A stretch of 64,000 nucleotides of DNA. Source: an uncultured Atopobiaceae bacterium. GTDB lineage: Bacteria > Actinomycetota > Coriobacteriia > Coriobacteriales > Atopobiaceae. Position numbers and translations under genes: made by a program. Location of the stretch: the NCBI GenBank assembly GCA_944320385.1, contig CALUHH010000009.1:1-64000 (forward strand), written 5' to 3'. Below are positions 6,115 to 13,642 of the stretch, piece after piece; the first letter of the stretch is position 1, and each line of letters starts with the position of its first letter. The notes below the pieces were generated by a model that was not told where the DNA came from, made no database searches, and saw only the letters and a list, made by a program, of their open reading frames with translations.

Positions 6115-6636
6115 TTACACGCGCACCACGTAGCCGTCCTTGCGCGGGGCGGCGGCGGGCTCGGGGCCGTCGGCGTAGCCCAGCGCGATGGAGCCTACGC
6201 CGCGCAGCGTCTCGGGAAGGCCCCACTCCTTGAGGAGCGCCTTGCCCCCCTCGCTGTCGAAGATCTCGCGCTCGCGATGGATCCAGCAGCTGGAGAGGCC
6301 CACGGCGTGCGCCGCGAGCATGAGGTTCTCGAGCACGCAGGAGCCGTCCTCCACGAAGGTGCCGCGTCCGCCGTCGGCGAGCACCACCACGATGGCCGGC
6401 GCGCCGTAGTACGGGTCGGTTTCCTTGCCCATGACGGCGGCGTTGAGCGCGCGCAGGCGCTCGCGGGTCTCGGGGCTCGTCGCGGCCACGATCACCGGTG
6501 ACTGGTGCCCGCCGCCCGTGGGCGCGTAGGTGCCCGCCTCAAGCACGGTGTCGAGCAGCTCTTGGGGGACGGGGTCCGCCTTGTAGCTGCGCACGCTCCT
6601 GCGCGTCTTGATGAGGTCGATGAGATTGCTTGCCAT
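6115..6636 (-). CDS. Nitroreductase-family FMN oxidoreductase
   Basis: A 173-residue single-domain protein of the NfsA/FrxA-type nitroreductase fold. The N-terminal TRRSVRSYKADPVPQELLD motif is typical of the FMN/NAD(P)H site. Further matches are APTGGGHQSP, a central GAPAIVVVLAD strand and the C-terminal GSIALGYAD...KDGYVV region. It should reduce nitro groups or quinones with NAD(P)H in the cytoplasm. Start: ATG at 6636 with AAAGGG on the minus strand. Its own promoter and an early terminator lie upstream (6673-6786), so expression may be set by attenuation. Confidence 0.88.
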   Translation of the reverse strand: MASNLIDLIKTRRSVRSYKADPVPQELLDTVLEAGTYAPTGGGHQSPVIVAATSPETRERLRALNAAVMGKETDPYYGAPAIVVVLADGGRGTFVEDGSCVLENLMLAAHAVGLSSCWIHREREIFDSEGGKALLKEWGLPETLRGVGSIALGYADGPEPAAAPRKDGYVVRV

Positions 6637-6672
6637 ACGCTGCCCTTTCTCTCGCCGGAAACCGCGATATAG

Positions 6673-6707
6673 AAAAACCGCCCATCTGCCCGAGGACAGG
6701 TGAGCGG
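6673..6707 (-). terminator. Early terminator in the nitroreductase leader
   Basis: On the minus strand, CCGCTCACCTG pairs with CAGATGGGCGG (one mismatch, one wobble) and is followed at once by TTTTT. It sits between the predicted promoter (6758-6786) and the start codon at 6636. A transcript must read through it to reach the gene. Confidence 0.65.
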
Positions 6708-6757
6708 CGAAAAGATGATGGCGGCATCCGGAAAAATCCGCTGGGATTTTCGAGTCC

Positions 6758-6786
6758 CATTATGGGCACTCCCCACGCCGTGTCAA
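6758..6786 (-). promoter_or_regulatory. Sigma-70 type promoter of the nitroreductase gene
   Basis: The minus strand shows TTGACA (6786-6781), a 17-base spacer and ATAATG (6763-6758). The -35 box is perfect. The predicted start of transcription is about 115 bases before the start codon. Confidence 0.65.
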
Positions 6787-6813
6787 GCGTCGACAAGAAC
6801 TTCTCGCCCCTGC

Positions 6814-6842
6814 TTGACTTCCGCAACCAAGGCCCGTACAGT
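6814..6842 (+). promoter_or_regulatory. Sigma-70 type promoter of the EamA transporter leader
   Basis: TTGACT (6814-6819), a 17-base spacer and TACAGT (6837-6842). It is back to back with the nitroreductase promoter; the two -35 boxes are 27 bases apart. Confidence 0.55.
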
Positions 6843-6891
6843 CAATTCGTCTAAAATCGTGTGGACTTTTCTGGGCGCAAGCCACCTTTTT

Positions 6892-6925
6892 GCCGCACAA
6901 CGGAGCTCCGGTTGTGCGGCCTTTT
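6892..6925 (+). terminator. Early terminator upstream of the EamA transporter gene
   Basis: GCCGCACAAC / GTTGTGCGGC form a perfect 10-base stem followed by CTTTTCG. It lies about 45 bases after the predicted start of transcription and 100 bases before the ATG. It defines either a short RNA of about 75 bases or an attenuated leader. The leader sequence between promoter and hairpin matches no riboswitch class I can recognise. Confidence 0.65.
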
Positions 6926-7025
6926 CGTACACATCGACCATATGGCGGTGCGGACGGCCTTCCTCCGAGAGCTCGAGGCGTAACGAGCCGAAGCCCCGTG
7001 TTGCGGGGCGAGAGGAGGGGCAGGC

Positions 7026-7979
7026 ATGGAAAACGTGATCGATCGGCCGATGCCGTCTGCGGGGATGGCGCCCTCGGGACGCCGCCGGGCGGTGGCGGCG
7101 CTCCAGGTGTTCGCGGGCGGCGCCTGCTACGGGGCGATGGCGACCACCTACAAGCTCGCCTACGCGGCGGGCTTCACCTCCGCGCAGGTGGTGGCGAGCC
7201 AGGCGTGGTTCGGCTTCCTGTTCTTCGGGCTCGCGGTGCTTCTCGGCCGTCTGCGCGGTGGCCGCTGGCAGCGTCTTTCTGGCAAGCAGGCGCTCGAACT
7301 CATGGGGCTCGGCGCCCTCACCTGCACCACTTCCATCCTGTACTGCTACGCCATGAGCGTGCTGCCCGCACCGGTTGCCCTCACGCTGCTCTTCCAGTTC
7401 ACGTGGATGGGGCTCGTCTGGCAGACCATCGCGACGCGTCGGCCCCCGCGCCCCGTGGAGGTCGCCTCGGCGGCGGTCATCGTGCTTGGCACCGTGTTCG
7501 CGAGCGGCGTCTACAAGACGGGGCTTGCGGGCTACGACCCGGTGGCCCTCCTCTGCGCGCTCGCCGCCGCCGTGACCTGCTCGCTCTTCGTGACGCTCTC
7601 CGGCAAGGTGAAGGCTCCCTGCTCCAACGAGCAGCGCGGCCTCTTCGTGTGCCTGGGGGCGGGCGTCATGTCGCTTACCGCATGCCCGGACTACCTGGTG
7701 TCAGGCGTCGTCTTCCAGGGCATCCTGCCCTTTGCCGCGGTCGCGGGCTTCTTCGGCCTCATGTGCCCGGTGCTGCTCTTTGGCCTGGGGTCGCCGCACC
7801 TGCCCGCCGGTCTCTCCACCGTCATGGCCGCGGCGGAGCTCCCCGCAGGTCTTCTCATCGCCATGGTCGTGCTCGGTGAGCCGCTCGGCGTCGTCGAGTG
7901 GCTGGGCGTGGCGGTGATTCTCGCGGGCGTGTGCCTCGCACAGGCTCCGAGCCTTCTCTCACGGCATACAATGCGGTGA
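7026..7979 (+). CDS. EamA/DMT-family transporter
   Basis: A 317-residue integral membrane protein with about ten hydrophobic segments in two similar halves, as in the drug/metabolite transporter superfamily (EamA repeats). Examples are FAGGACYGAMATTYKLAYAA near the N-terminus and a second half with GLGSPHLPAGLSTVMAAAEL then LGEPLGVVEWLGVAVILAGV. The E-x-P motif late in each repeat is typical. Start: ATG 7026 after GAGGAGGGG. It is preceded by a leader with an early terminator. The substrate is unknown; amino acids or other metabolites are usual for the family. Confidence 0.88.
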   Translation: MENVIDRPMPSAGMAPSGRRRAVAALQVFAGGACYGAMATTYKLAYAAGFTSAQVVASQAWFGFLFFGLAVLLGRLRGGRWQRLSGKQALELMGLGALTCTTSILYCYAMSVLPAPVALTLLFQFTWMGLVWQTIATRRPPRPVEVASAAVIVLGTVFASGVYKTGLAGYDPVALLCALAAAVTCSLFVTLSGKVKAPCSNEQRGLFVCLGAGVMSLTACPDYLVSGVVFQGILPFAAVAGFFGLMCPVLLFGLGSPHLPAGLSTVMAAAELPAGLLIAMVVLGEPLGVVEWLGVAVILAGVCLAQAPSLLSRHTMR

Positions 7980-9451: not shown

Positions 9452-9581
9452 CTGTCAATTGGGGACGTGATATTTCATGCAGATAGTTTGGGACAGGTTT
9501 GGCCGTGCCGCAAGGTACGTATCCTTGAGAGAAAACCTGTCCCAAACCGTCTGCATGAAATATCACGTCCCCAATTGACAG
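9452..9581. repeat. Long inverted repeat with GTCCCCAATTGACAG ends
   Basis: A 130-base element. The left arm (9452-9500) begins CTGTCAATTGGGGAC and continues GTGATATTTCATGCAG and TTTGGGACAGGTTT. The right arm (9534-9581) is its near-perfect reverse complement. The outer 15 bases are shared with the elements at 12.3 and 53.8 kb. It could fold into a hairpin of almost 50 base pairs. No coding content. Confidence 0.9.
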
Positions 9582-9595
9582 ACGGTCCGGGCCCC

Positions 9596-9740
9596 GTGAG
9601 GGTATGTACACCCGCCCAAGAGGGTATGTACATCTCTCGACCCGCCCGCTCTTCTCGACAGCGCTTTGACCTGCGGATTCGCTGCCCGCACTTGATGGCG
9701 GGGTGTACATACCCTCCGGGGCGGGTGTACATACCCTCAC
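9596..9740. repeat. TGTACA-type inverted repeat element, copy 1
   Basis: A 145-base element with perfect 22-base ends starting GTGAGGGTATGTACACCC (9596) and closing at 9740, plus a second nested pair carrying TGTACA. The core holds CCGCTCTTCTCGACAGC and CTTTGACCTGCGGATT. Related elements are at 23970, 29705 and 60961. Between it and iorA (9741-9853) I see nothing further beyond the ribosome site of iorA. Confidence 0.85.
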
Positions 9741-9853
9741 GGCTGGGATGGCGCCCAGGCCTGAACGCGCCCGGCTTGGTTACTGGTTTGCGACGGTTCC
9801 GCCGAGCAGCCCGCGTCTCTGGTAGAGTGCGGCCCAACGTGAGAGGGGGCCGC

Positions 9854-11749
9854 ATGCACAGAGAGTTCCTGATGGGCAACGAGGCCATGGCGGTCGGCGC
9901 GCTCGCCGCGGGCGTGAACGTGGTGGCCGGCTATCCCGGCACGCCGTCGACCGAGGTCCTCGAGACCGTGGCAAAGCGTCGCGGCGAGGGCGTCTACGTG
10001 GAGTGGTCGGTCAACGAGAAGGCCGCGCTCGAGGTCGCTGCCGGGGCCGCCTACGCCGGCGCCCGCGCGCTCGTCACGATGAAGCAGGTGGGCCTCAACG
10101 TCGCGTCCGACCCGCTCATGAGCCTCTCCTACATCGGCGTCAAGGGCGGCATGGTCGTGCTCGTGGCCGACGACCCCGGCCCCATCTCGTCCCAGACCGA
10201 GCAGGACACGCGCACCTTCGCCGCCTACGCCAAGCTGCCCGTCCTCGACCCGTCGAGCCCGTCCGAGGCCTACGCGATGATGGGGGAGGCCTTCGACCTC
10301 TCCGAGGAGCTGGGCTGTCCCGTGATCGTCCGTCCGACCACGCGCGTCGACCACGGCTACGAGGACGTCGAGGTGGCCGATCCGGACGAGTGGCGCGTCA
10401 ACGAGCCCGAGGGCTTCGTCCGCGACCCCTCCTGCTGGGTCATCTTCCCGGCGCTCTCCGTTCGTGCCCACGCGGCGATCGAGAAGCGCGACGCCCTTCT
10501 CGCCGCGCGCCTCTCCGGCTACGCGAGAAACACCGTCCGCCAGACCGCCGGCTCGGCAGCCCGGCCGCGCCTCGGCATCGCCACCCACGGCATCAGCGCC
10601 ACCTACGTGACGGAGAACCTGAGCGATAAGGACGACGTGCGCGTCCTGCGCATCGCGACCCCATACCCCTTCCCGGAGCCCCTCGCGGCCGAGTTCCTCG
10701 ACGGCCTCGACGAGGTCCTCTGCGTGGAGGAGCTCGACCCCGTGATCGAGCGCGCCCTCGTGGCAGCCTGCGGCCGCCGCGGCCTATCCGTCACGATCCG
10801 CGGCAAGCTTACCGGCGACATCCAGCCGTCGGGAGAGAATACCGTCGAAAGTGTCGGGGAAGTCCTTGACCGTTTCCTCGGTAGGGAGGCGGCTGACGAG
10901 AGCGAGGCGCCGGGCATTTCCCCGCGCGCAGTTCCGCAGCCGCGCAGCGGCGAGGACTGTTTGAGCACGGGGAATTGCCCGGCGCCACCAACGCTTCCTG
11001 TTCGTCCCCCCGTCCTCTGCGCCGGCTGCCCGCACCGCGCGAGCTTCTATGCCGTCAAGAGGGCCATGCGCGGCCGCAAGACGCTCTTCTGCGGCGACAT
11101 CGGCTGCTACACGCTCGGCAACGCCAAGCCGCTCGACATGGTTGACACGTGCCTGTGCATGGGCGCGGGCGTCAACATCGCGCAGGGCGTCACGCACGTG
11201 GAGACCGACACCGTCGCCTTTGCCTTCGTGGGCGACTCCACCTTCTTCGCATCCGGCATCACCGGCGTGGTGAACGCCATCTACAACCAGGCCAACATGA
11301 CGCTTGTCGTGCTCGACAACTCCACCACGGCCATGACGGGCCACCAGCCGCACCCGGGCACGGGTCGCACGATGATGGGCCAGGTCGTGGAGAAGGTCAG
11401 CATCGAGCGCGTCCTTCTCGCCATCGGTCTCACGGTGGTGGAGACCGTGGACCCGCTCGACCACGAGCGCGCCGTCGAGACCGTCCGCCGCGTCGCGGAC
11501 GAGCCGGGCGTCAAGGCGATCATCTTCCGCAGCCCGTGCGTGGTGCTCGCCCGGCCCGACGCAAGAAGCGTCGTGGATGCCGAGAAGTGCGTCGGCTGCC
11601 AGCGCTGCGTGCGGGAGCTGGGCTGCCCCGCCCTCGTGCCGGACGCGGCGACCGGCAAGGTCCGCATCGACGCCGCGCAGTGCACGGGCTGCACCCTCTG
11701 CGAGCAGATCTGTCCCACGAGCGCCATCTCGGGAGGTGAGCGCCTGTGA
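9854..11749 (+). CDS. iorA: Indolepyruvate ferredoxin oxidoreductase, alpha subunit
   Basis: A 631-residue, oxygen-sensitive enzyme subunit that oxidatively decarboxylates aryl pyruvates (from Trp, Phe, Tyr) to aryl-acetyl-CoA and reduces ferredoxin. An N-terminal pyrimidine-type domain has GYPGTPSTEVLE. The thiamine-diphosphate part follows with LFCGDIGCYTLG, GDSTFFASGITGVVNAIYNQ and DNSTTAMTGHQPHPG. The C-terminus carries two 4Fe-4S motifs (CVGCQRCVRELGCP, CTGCTLCEQICP). A Pro/Ser-rich linker near residues 340-380 is less conserved. Start: ATG 9854 after GAGAGGGGG. The stop overlaps iorB. Confidence 0.95.
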   Translation: MHREFLMGNEAMAVGALAAGVNVVAGYPGTPSTEVLETVAKRRGEGVYVEWSVNEKAALEVAAGAAYAGARALVTMKQVGLNVASDPLMSLSYIGVKGGMVVLVADDPGPISSQTEQDTRTFAAYAKLPVLDPSSPSEAYAMMGEAFDLSEELGCPVIVRPTTRVDHGYEDVEVADPDEWRVNEPEGFVRDPSCWVIFPALSVRAHAAIEKRDALLAARLSGYARNTVRQTAGSAARPRLGIATHGISATYVTENLSDKDDVRVLRIATPYPFPEPLAAEFLDGLDEVLCVEELDPVIERALVAACGRRGLSVTIRGKLTGDIQPSGENTVESVGEVLDRFLGREAADESEAPGISPRAVPQPRSGEDCLSTGNCPAPPTLPVRPPVLCAGCPHRASFYAVKRAMRGRKTLFCGDIGCYTLGNAKPLDMVDTCLCMGAGVNIAQGVTHVETDTVAFAFVGDSTFFASGITGVVNAIYNQANMTLVVLDNSTTAMTGHQPHPGTGRTMMGQVVEKVSIERVLLAIGLTVVETVDPLDHERAVETVRRVADEPGVKAIIFRSPCVVLARPDARSVVDAEKCVGCQRCVRELGCPALVPDAATGKVRIDAAQCTGCTLCEQICPTSAISGGERL

Positions 11750-12357
11750 GCGAGAACGCCATGAGCACCGACATCATCCTCGCGGGCGTGGGCGGCCAGG
11801 GCGCCGTCCTCGCGTCCAAGCTGCTCGCGCGCGCCGCGATGGGGCGCGGGCTTCCCGTCAAGACTGCCGAGACCATCGGCATGGCGCAGCGCGGCGGCTC
11901 GGTCTTCAGCCACGTGAGGCTGGGGGAGGACTCGTCCTCGCCGCTGATCGGCCGCGGTCGCGCCGACGCGATCGTCGCCTTCGAGCCGGCGGAGGCCGTG
12001 CGGCAGCTGTCGTTCCTGCGTCCGGGCGGGAGGGTCGTCACGAGCGACGCGCCCGTGGTGCCCGTCTCTGCGGCAACCGGCGGCCCGGCGTACGACCTGC
12101 CTGCGATCATGTCCTACCTGCACGAGCGCGTGGGCGAGAAGAACCTCGCGGTCGTGGACGCCGCTGCCGCCGAGGCGGAGCTCGGCACCGCGCGCGTACT
12201 CAATGTGGTCCTTCTCGGCGCCGCGGCACGCGCCGGCGCGCTCGGCCCCGTCACCCTTGACGACCTCGCTGCGGCCGTCCGCGCCACCGTGAGCCCCCGC
12301 TTCCTCGACCTCGACCTCCGCGCTCTGTCAATTGGGGACAGTCCCCAATTCACATAA
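11746..12357 (+). CDS. iorB: Indolepyruvate ferredoxin oxidoreductase, beta subunit
   Basis: A 203-residue subunit of the 2-oxoacid oxidoreductase gamma-domain type (GVGGQGAVLASKLLARAAM, TAETIGMAQRGGSVFSHVR). It should bind CoA and pair with IorA. The GTG start at 11746 overlaps the iorA stop as GTGA and has GGGAGGTG upstream; ATG 11761 is the alternative. The last residues (SIGDSPQFT) and the TAA stop are encoded by the inverted repeat that begins at 12323, so the natural C-terminus was replaced when that element arrived. Confidence 0.92.
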   Translation: MSENAMSTDIILAGVGGQGAVLASKLLARAAMGRGLPVKTAETIGMAQRGGSVFSHVRLGEDSSSPLIGRGRADAIVAFEPAEAVRQLSFLRPGGRVVTSDAPVVPVSAATGGPAYDLPAIMSYLHERVGEKNLAVVDAAAAEAELGTARVLNVVLLGAAARAGALGPVTLDDLAAAVRATVSPRFLDLDLRALSIGDSPQFT

Positions 12358-12397
12358 ATAATTTCTGCAAATTGGGGACTGTCCCCAATTGACAGAG
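12323..12397. repeat. GGGGACAGTCCCC-type inverted repeat inside the ior-paaK operon, copy 1
   Basis: Perfect 28-base arms (12323-12350 and 12370-12397). Each contains TGTCAATTGGGGAC joined to its own reverse half, around a 19-base A+T-rich loop. It supplies the iorB stop codon, and its right edge (GACAGAG) runs into the paaK ribosome site (GAGGAG). A near-identical element sits in the glutamate transporter operon at 53774-53844. Confidence 0.92.
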
Positions 12398-12406
12398 GAG
12401 ACAGAC

Positions 12407-13642
12407 ATGAAGATCAGCGCGTCCCAGCTCAAGCTCGTGAACGACCAGGTCCAGCGCCTCGTGGCGTCGGGCAACTACTTCGGGCGGCGCCTCCAGGAGG
12501 CCGGCGTCACCGAGGTCCTCACGGAGGAGGACTTCCTCGCGCTGCCCTTCTCGGAGAAGGAGGACCTGCGCAACTGCTACCCGCTCGGGATCTCTGCCGT
12601 GGACGAGCGCCAGATCGTGCGCATCCACTCGAGCTCCGGCACCACGGGAACGCCCGTGATCATCCCCTACACCGCGCGCGACGTCGACGACTGGGCCACG
12701 CAGTTTGCCCGCTGCTACGAGCTCGCGGGCATCACGTCCGAGGACCGCATCCAGATCACGCCCGGCTACGGCCTCTGGACCGCGGGCATCGGCTTCCAGG
12801 CCGGCGCGGAGAAGCTCGGCGCGATGGCCGTCCCGATGGGGCCCGGCAACACCGAGAAGCAGCTCCAGTTCATGTTGGACCTGCAGACCACGGTCATCGG
12901 CGCCACGTCGAGCTATGCCCTGCTCCTGGCCGAGGAGGTGGAGGCGCGCGGCATGCGCGACAGCATCGCGCTGCGCAAGGGCGTCATCGGCTCCGAGCGC
13001 TGGGGCAAGAAGATGCGCGACCGCGTGAAGGCGGGCCTCGGCATCCAGGTCTACGACATCTACGGCCTCACGGAGGTCTACGGTCCCGGCATCGGCATCT
13101 CCTGCGACGCCGAGGACGGCATGCACTACTGGGACGACTTCATCTACATCGAGATCGTCGACCCCGCCACGGGCGCCCCGCTGCCCGACGGCGAGTGGGG
13201 CGAGATCGTGATCACGACGCTGGTCAAGGAGGGCGCGCCGCTCATCCGCTTCCGCACGCACGACCTCAGCCGCATCATCCCCGGCGCCTGCCCCTGCGGC
13301 AGCGCCTACCCGCGCATCGACACGCTGCAGGGCCGCTCCGACGACATGGTCAAGATCAAGGGCGTCAACGTCTTCCCACGTCAGATTGAGGAGGTGCTGC
13401 AGGAGTTCACGCAGCTCTCGAGCGAGTACCAGATCCGCATCTCGCACCTCGAGGGCCGCGACACCATGCGCATCTACGTGGAGACGGACGGCACGCAGGA
13501 CTTCCTCGACCTCGCGGACGAGGTCGCGCACGAGGTCAAGCGCCGCATCGGCTTCACGCCGCTCGTGAAGGTGGTCGAGCTCGGCGTCCTGCCGCGCAGC
13601 GAGAAGAAGACCCGCCGCGTCTTCGACGAGCGCTACGAGTAG
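12407..13642 (+). CDS. paaK: Phenylacetate-CoA ligase family enzyme
   Basis: A 411-residue adenylate-forming ligase that joins aryl acetates to CoA or, in reverse, yields ATP from aryl-acetyl-CoA. Motifs are the P-loop SSGTTGTPVIIPYT, YDIYGLTEVYGPGIG, and the C-terminal hinge MVKIKGVNVFPRQIEEVL typical of PaaK. Together with IorAB it fits fermentation of aromatic amino acids to aryl acetates with energy conservation, as in archaeal and coriobacterial ior-paaK pairs. Start: ATG 12407, six bases after GAGGAG. The frame is clean and length is normal for the family. Confidence 0.93.
   Translation: MKISASQLKLVNDQVQRLVASGNYFGRRLQEAGVTEVLTEEDFLALPFSEKEDLRNCYPLGISAVDERQIVRIHSSSGTTGTPVIIPYTARDVDDWATQFARCYELAGITSEDRIQITPGYGLWTAGIGFQAGAEKLGAMAVPMGPGNTEKQLQFMLDLQTTVIGATSSYALLLAEEVEARGMRDSIALRKGVIGSERWGKKMRDRVKAGLGIQVYDIYGLTEVYGPGIGISCDAEDGMHYWDDFIYIEIVDPATGAPLPDGEWGEIVITTLVKEGAPLIRFRTHDLSRIIPGACPCGSAYPRIDTLQGRSDDMVKIKGVNVFPRQIEEVLQEFTQLSSEYQIRISHLEGRDTMRIYVETDGTQDFLDLADEVAHEVKRRIGFTPLVKVVELGVLPRSEKKTRRVFDERYE

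Follow-up and report, generated by a model that had tools for sequence, protein, structure and literature searches.

A shared RNA motif, candidate for an orphan riboswitch, in the divergent leaders of nitroreductase and EamA transporter genes of an uncultured Atopobiaceae bacterium

The two divergent leaders between a nitroreductase gene and an EamA transporter gene of an uncultured Atopobiaceae bacterium carry the same RNA motif. Based on an analysis of the window, i.e., the whole stretch of 64,000 nucleotides of DNA under study, we propose, with a probability of about two in three, that both transcripts open with a candidate for an orphan ON-riboswitch, which would act by transcription attenuation and respond to a small molecule that is toxic and can be reduced and exported. 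If this reading is right, the leaders belong to a new orphan riboswitch class whose small and coherent set of target genes makes the hunt for the ligand tractable. It would also mean that an uncharacterised short nitroreductase shares a substrate or substrate class with one MATE and one EamA subfamily, that a chemical stress is encountered by gut bacteria from several phyla, and that two non-homologous exporters have been swapped under one RNA element.

Layout of the divergent locus

The 390 bp between the nitroreductase and EamA genes contain two back-to-back promoters and one intrinsic terminator per leader (Table 1). A pattern scan for sigma-70 promoters in 6400-7200 returned exactly one per strand, compared with a mean of 0.2 in shuffled sequences, and the EamA transcript is predicted to start at ~6848-6849. 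The preliminary description, made from the sequence alone, had pictured divergent genes, each with a clear promoter and each with an intrinsic terminator ahead of the ribosome site. This picture was confirmed, including its coordinates, and both terminators sit 5' of the start codons of their genes. A further hairpin from the scan (6759-6742, minus strand) overlaps the promoter and the predicted start, and was rejected as a leader terminator in favor of the one at 6708-6677.

Table 1. Features of the divergent nitroreductase-EamA locus, in window coordinates.
Feature	Position	Strand	Details
Nitroreductase-family gene	6115..6636, ATG 6636	-	173 aa; PF00881, E 1.7e-21
Nitroreductase-leader intrinsic terminator	6677..6708	-	GCCGCTCACCTGTCCTCGGGCAGATGGGCGGT 6708-6677 then TTTTCT; about -20 kcal/mol
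Motif copy 2, nitroreductase leader	6698..6754	-	A-run 6750-6747
Copy 2, P1	AGCGG 6742-6738 with CCGCU 6707-6703	-	
Copy 2, P2	GAUG 6728-6725 with CAUC 6720-6717	-	
Copy 2, U-rich strands		-	AUUUUUCC and AUCUUUUCG
Nitroreductase promoter	6759..6786	-	TTGACA 6786-6781 / 16 nt / CATAAT 6764-6759; 11/12 consensus matches
EamA promoter	6814..6842	+	TTGACT 6814-6819 / 17 nt / TACAGT 6837-6842
Motif copy 1, EamA leader	6848..6902	+	A-run 6853-6856
Copy 1, P1	GTGTGG 6859-6864 with CCGCAC 6893-6898	+	
Copy 1, P2	GGC 6874-6876 with GCC 6881-6883	+	
Copy 1, U-rich strands		+	ACUUUUCU and CCUUUUUG
EamA-leader intrinsic terminator	6892..6927 including T tract	+	GCCGCACAACGGAGCTCCGGTTGTGCGGC 6892-6920 then CTTTTCG; -19.8 kcal/mol
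EamA/DMT-family transporter gene	7026..7979, ATG 7026	+	317 aa; PF00892, E 2.4e-10

The stretch from the terminator to the EamA ribosome site (6942-7020) contains a 13-codon ORF (MAVRTAFLRELEA) as well as another strong hairpin (GCCCCGTGTTGCGGGGC); a hairpin resembling GCCCCGTGTTGCGGGGC is also seen in close relatives. Near the gene pair, at 9467-13642, inspection of translations by eye revealed an indolepyruvate ferredoxin oxidoreductase pair and a phenylacetate-CoA ligase, and these genes probably serve aromatic amino acid fermentation.

Structure and conservation of the leader motif

The motif consists, in order, of a 5'-terminal A-run, a helix P1 with a GYGG:CCRC core, a large U-rich internal loop and a helix P2. 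Covariance model R1, built from the EamA leaders of relatives only, detected, on the opposite strand, the window's nitroreductase leader with 37.0 bits (E 4e-8 over the loci, 3.2e-7 over the genome) and matched nitroreductase leaders in more than 20 other genomes. Since a model that contains EamA leaders only matches the nitroreductase leader, both leaders carry the same RNA motif. The genome itself holds exactly two copies, the pair in the window, and the nitroreductase copy scores 60.9 bits with model R3.

The two copies are identical at 32 of 55 aligned positions, and their differences at paired sites are compensated, UA being replaced by CG inside P1 and GC by AU inside P2. As they stand back to back within ~210 bp, their likeness might stem from an inverted duplication, so that the signal need not still be common to both. 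We consider this distinctly improbable, since the paired differences are compensated despite such low identity, and since either copy is conserved in its own right and is present singly at other loci (EamA leader, L021-L028; nitroreductase leader, L019, L020 and L030). In addition, nitroreductase-MATE and MATE leaders occur independently in Bacillota.

The P1 pairing GYGUGG / CCRCRC is evident from divergent copies, in which the outer pair is GC, CG or AU, the next pair CG, UG, UA or AU, and the pair further in UA, UG or CG. In P2, GGC/GCC turns into GAC/GUC or GAU/AUC. When the EamA leaders were aligned with MAFFT without fitting to the structure (alignment A1), 97.4% of cells paired, compared with 24-55% for slid partners. 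Three pairs change on both sides, and the covariation score was 0.218 versus 0.146 in shuffles and was reached by none of 500 shuffles; such scores are inflated by related rows, and the slid controls are nevertheless far lower. With the nitroreductase leaders added, five pairs change on both sides and again 0 of 500 shuffles reached the score; with Bacillota added, the score was 0.286 versus 0.165 (0 of 500), alignments A2 and A3 being fitted to the model structure and biased towards it.

The invariant positions are concentrated in the internal loop (AYUUUUCY / YCUUUUYG) and the A-run, neither of which gave a covariation signal. The A-run is at least 4 nt long in 57 of 61 distinct rows, and in 58 of 70 motif loci its start falls 7-12 nt past the -10 box, i.e., near the predicted 5' end of the RNA. 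When possible pairs between the A-run and the first U-run were inspected by eye, the flanking bases showed no consistent covariation. Two EamA leaders (L073:2243-2364 and L075:2213-2334) have an insertion of ~70 nt between the hairpin halves, in or beside the P2 loop, with the flanking core intact.

The conservation of the leaders in relatives, a check named in the preliminary description, was borne out, and the covariance search was positive. A DNA search of 100 relatives located the region in 24 genomes and the EamA leader also elsewhere alone. This leader is made up of a near-invariant block, GTCTAAAATCGYGTGGACTTTTCTGGGCG...CACCTTTTTGCCRCRC, followed by a terminator of variable sequence and constant pairing. 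Wherever enough sequence follows a copy, the gene behind it is the EamA orthologue, while the nitroreductase adjoins in a subset only; the EamA leader stays put while the gene neighborhood changes. Among the EamA orthologues from 397 genomes of the order, the block is kept to ~53% EamA protein identity and is gone below ~50%, with the exception of a weaker copy at 48% (L101). The motif was found in 56 of 398 sampled genomes of the window's class, and a phylum-wide sample of Actinomycetota gave matches from Coriobacteriales only, plus one unconvincing match (G596/L168). Weak R1 matches at other Coriobacteriales genes (L151-L157) have no terminator in register and were attributed to chance, as were L168, L175, L189, L212, L218, L228, L242 and L249.

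A terminator at the same position, whose 5' strand includes the P1 3' strand, is present in 91 of 98 distinct leaders (median -22.5 kcal/mol), and its loops are mutually unrelated (59 different loops in the 91 leaders). Could these be plain intrinsic terminators in a conserved but uninteresting leader, with constitutive low readthrough? One such terminator does occur by chance in 5-27% of shuffles of comparable sequence. This explanation is nonetheless hardly credible given the conserved sequence and the covarying alternative helix, which recur across phyla with the terminator in the same register; the covariation and the specific gene association described below contradict it.

Distribution across lineages and comparison with known RNA families

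To characterize the motif outside Coriobacteriales, a pattern scan of 84,980 species was followed by scoring with model R2, trained on Coriobacteriales alone. At least 36 leaders outside the order scored 37-56 bits, and they came from Lachnospiraceae, other Clostridia, Bifidobacterium pullorum and single MAGs labelled Treponema and Gastranaerophilales, the last two labels being possibly wrong. The motif is present in 30 of 299 sampled genomes of the family of Lacrimispora and in 3 of 341 of its class. As a negative control, model R3 was applied to 30 Coriobacteriales SMR-transporter loci, where nothing scored above 11.3 bits.

The genes behind the leaders outside Coriobacteriales encode an orthologue of the nitroreductase, a MATE_A pump or a MATE_B pump, and once a YitT-family protein; a frequent operon is leader-nitroreductase-MATE_B-MATE_A. 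The nitroreductase of the window is 67% identical over its full length to the motif-associated one of Lacrimispora saccharolytica (L232). Thus, a structured RNA is kept in the 5' leaders of functionally related, non-homologous genes, a feature by which riboswitches are recognized. Based on the MATE pumps behind the leaders in other lineages, the EamA protein of the window looks like their Coriobacteriales counterpart. In Gemmiger formicilis (L203), a 44-codon remnant of the nitroreductase gene lies between the leader and the MATE_B gene.

One B. pullorum isolate carries both arrangements, i.e., leader-EamA of the Coriobacteriales type with an EamA protein 81% identical (L335, G753:C36), and leader-nitroreductase-MATE_B (L342/L211, G753:C38), which suggests that leader plus gene have been transferred horizontally. 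The preliminary description had further suggested a common signal for the two genes, read by an RNA sensor. This idea gains support from the match of the EamA-only model to the nitroreductase leader and from the covarying helices, as well as from the presence of the same RNA before the same nitroreductase and before MATE pumps in other phyla. As this RNA stands ahead of genes for detoxification and drug efflux in many gut bacteria, it probably serves to sense a toxic small molecule.

The window had no matches in Rfam 15 at gathering scores, and its leaders gave chance matches only at E up to 10, in agreement with the initial impression that they are not a known riboswitch. Ten loci from Bacillota and Bifidobacterium returned just unrelated T-box and 6S RNA, and for the L235 leader nothing was above threshold at E up to 10. 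In the open literature no motif is described at MATE, nitroreductase and EamA genes, an earlier description elsewhere being possible; within the same scope, no triplex- or ENE-like bacterial leader of this kind is described. The lack of an Rfam match, of a guanidine-IV/Gd4v pseudoknot and of a description in the open literature together make the motif an orphan riboswitch candidate.

Closest to the motif in regulatory logic and target genes are guanidine-IV riboswitches (GGAM-1, mepA) and Gd4v, which resemble it in their short leader, their MATE and detoxification genes, their occurrence in Bacillota and Actinomycetota, their intrinsic terminator and their ON logic. In both, a pseudoknot connects two hairpins, and the loop of the terminator hairpin has conserved nucleotides (PMC7736828, PMC9788692); Gd4v is an orphan variant with no known ligand that is enriched in the gut (PMC7736828, PMC9788692, PMC11611296). 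The antitermination ON logic, the MATE link, the two phyla and the gut enrichment of Gd4v (PMC7736828, PMC9788692) could make the leaders a divergent member of this group. We regard such membership as very improbable. The conserved loop-loop pseudoknot of guanidine-IV and Gd4v includes the terminator hairpin, whereas in the leaders described here the conserved core is a U-rich internal loop, and the hairpin that carries it cannot coexist with the terminator. The loop of the terminator is unconstrained, and its variety in the 91 terminators leaves no conserved loop feature. The associated genes differ as well, being nitroreductase, EamA and MATE, and the main text on Gd4v is without nitroreductase or EamA. 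Neither the guanidine-IV association with SMR genes (sugE/emrE) nor the Gd4v association with PRK07324 transaminase was seen at the 30 Coriobacteriales SMR loci and among the downstream genes. This separation is based on the published descriptions and the SMR loci of Coriobacteriales. The SMR loci of two relatives contain a guanidine-III riboswitch, RF01763 (L358:1791-1851 and L359:1424-1483).

Other known systems show partial likeness. In the trpB motif (RF04312), the right shoulder of a hairpin contains an antiterminator, and a terminator comes next (PMC11109978). This motif shares hairpin, antiterminator and terminator with the leaders, but its genes differ, and RF04312 scored one member of the motif at 18.1 bits (E 2.7), which is chance level when compared with its gathering score of 59 bits. 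Features of T-box or leader-peptide attenuators were not found: the window is without a T-box match, and its two motif copies contain no start codon with a Shine-Dalgarno sequence. Furthermore, conservation of the motif follows paired positions, and the predicted 5' end is where the A-run is located. The azaaromatic (yjdF) riboswitch is an RNA that responds to a wide range of toxic aromatic compounds; its likeness to the leaders is an analogy only, and no Rfam riboswitch family matches the motif.

Proposed regulation

In computed minimum-energy folds of the nascent RNA, the leaders of the window form the P1/P2 hairpin (-13.4 and -9.9 kcal/mol), while the finished leader folds in both cases into the terminator at about -20 kcal/mol. 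The 3' strand of P1 doubles as the terminator's 5' strand, which makes P1 an antiterminator, and the two helices are mutually exclusive in 91 of 98 distinct leaders, as in the expression platform of a riboswitch. Because P1/P2 folds first and the terminator wins in the full leader, the default state would be OFF, and stabilization of P1/P2 would turn the switch ON.

In this scheme, the P1/P2 hairpin would form first on the emerging RNA. Without stabilization, the 3' half of the terminator would capture the 3' strand of P1, and transcription would end before the gene. A small molecule on the P1/P2 hairpin would let P1 persist, so that the polymerase enters the gene. Both the ON direction and direct binding of a ligand by the motif RNA are what we infer. 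The ligand site is probably the invariant internal loop of U-rich strands, in which the 5' A-run would dock, i.e., the A-run together with the U-runs. The opposed U-runs and the A-run could form major-groove U.A-U triples, as in ENE-type U-rich loops with an A-run and in the triplexes of SAM-II and guanidine-III, to which they bear a resemblance only. The signal would most likely be a small toxic molecule, or an intracellular marker of such a molecule, which the nitroreductase would modify and EamA (in Coriobacteriales) or MATE (in Bacillota) would export; as the preliminary description had suggested by way of example, the compound may be toxic and redox-active. In its fullest form, a proposal that we see as evenly poised, the leaders would constitute an undescribed riboswitch class of gut Actinomycetota and Bacillota, in which the 5' A-run docks into the opposed U-runs of an aptamer hairpin and a toxic, probably aromatic or redox-active gut compound turns ON the nitroreductase and the exporter of the lineage, EamA or MATE.

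In computed folds of the terminated state, the A-run instead pairs downstream in 28 of 56 leaders, and in the nitroreductase leader it pairs with the first U-run. Downstream pairing in the terminated state would make the A-run an anti-antiterminator.

Protein-mediated attenuation, as in antitermination of the LicT/SacY type, yields an identical anatomy of antiterminator and terminator, and the U-rich internal loop and the 5' A-run are plausible protein sites. An RNA-binding antiterminator protein, or else a general stress factor, might bind the hairpin, and the protein would then sense the compound. We consider this rather unlikely, as the RNA seems to move with its gene between phyla (both leader types occurring in B. 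pullorum), no shared regulator gene is among the genes behind the leaders (nitroreductase, MATE, EamA and one YitT), and the invariant core exceeds the needs of the paired helices. A trans-acting RNA could be an alternative binder of the same hairpin.

Direct sensing by the leader RNA remains our preferred reading, and the attenuation part of it applies to the leaders with a terminator. All seven leaders without one are EamA leaders of the Eggerthellaceae type that keep the P1/P2 hairpin (L076, L078, L081, L082, L083, L084 and L086, from Eggerthellaceae-like genomes and one from the window's family). With the hairpin retained and the terminator missing, part of the family must act differently; these leaders likely use another expression platform, perhaps translational control.
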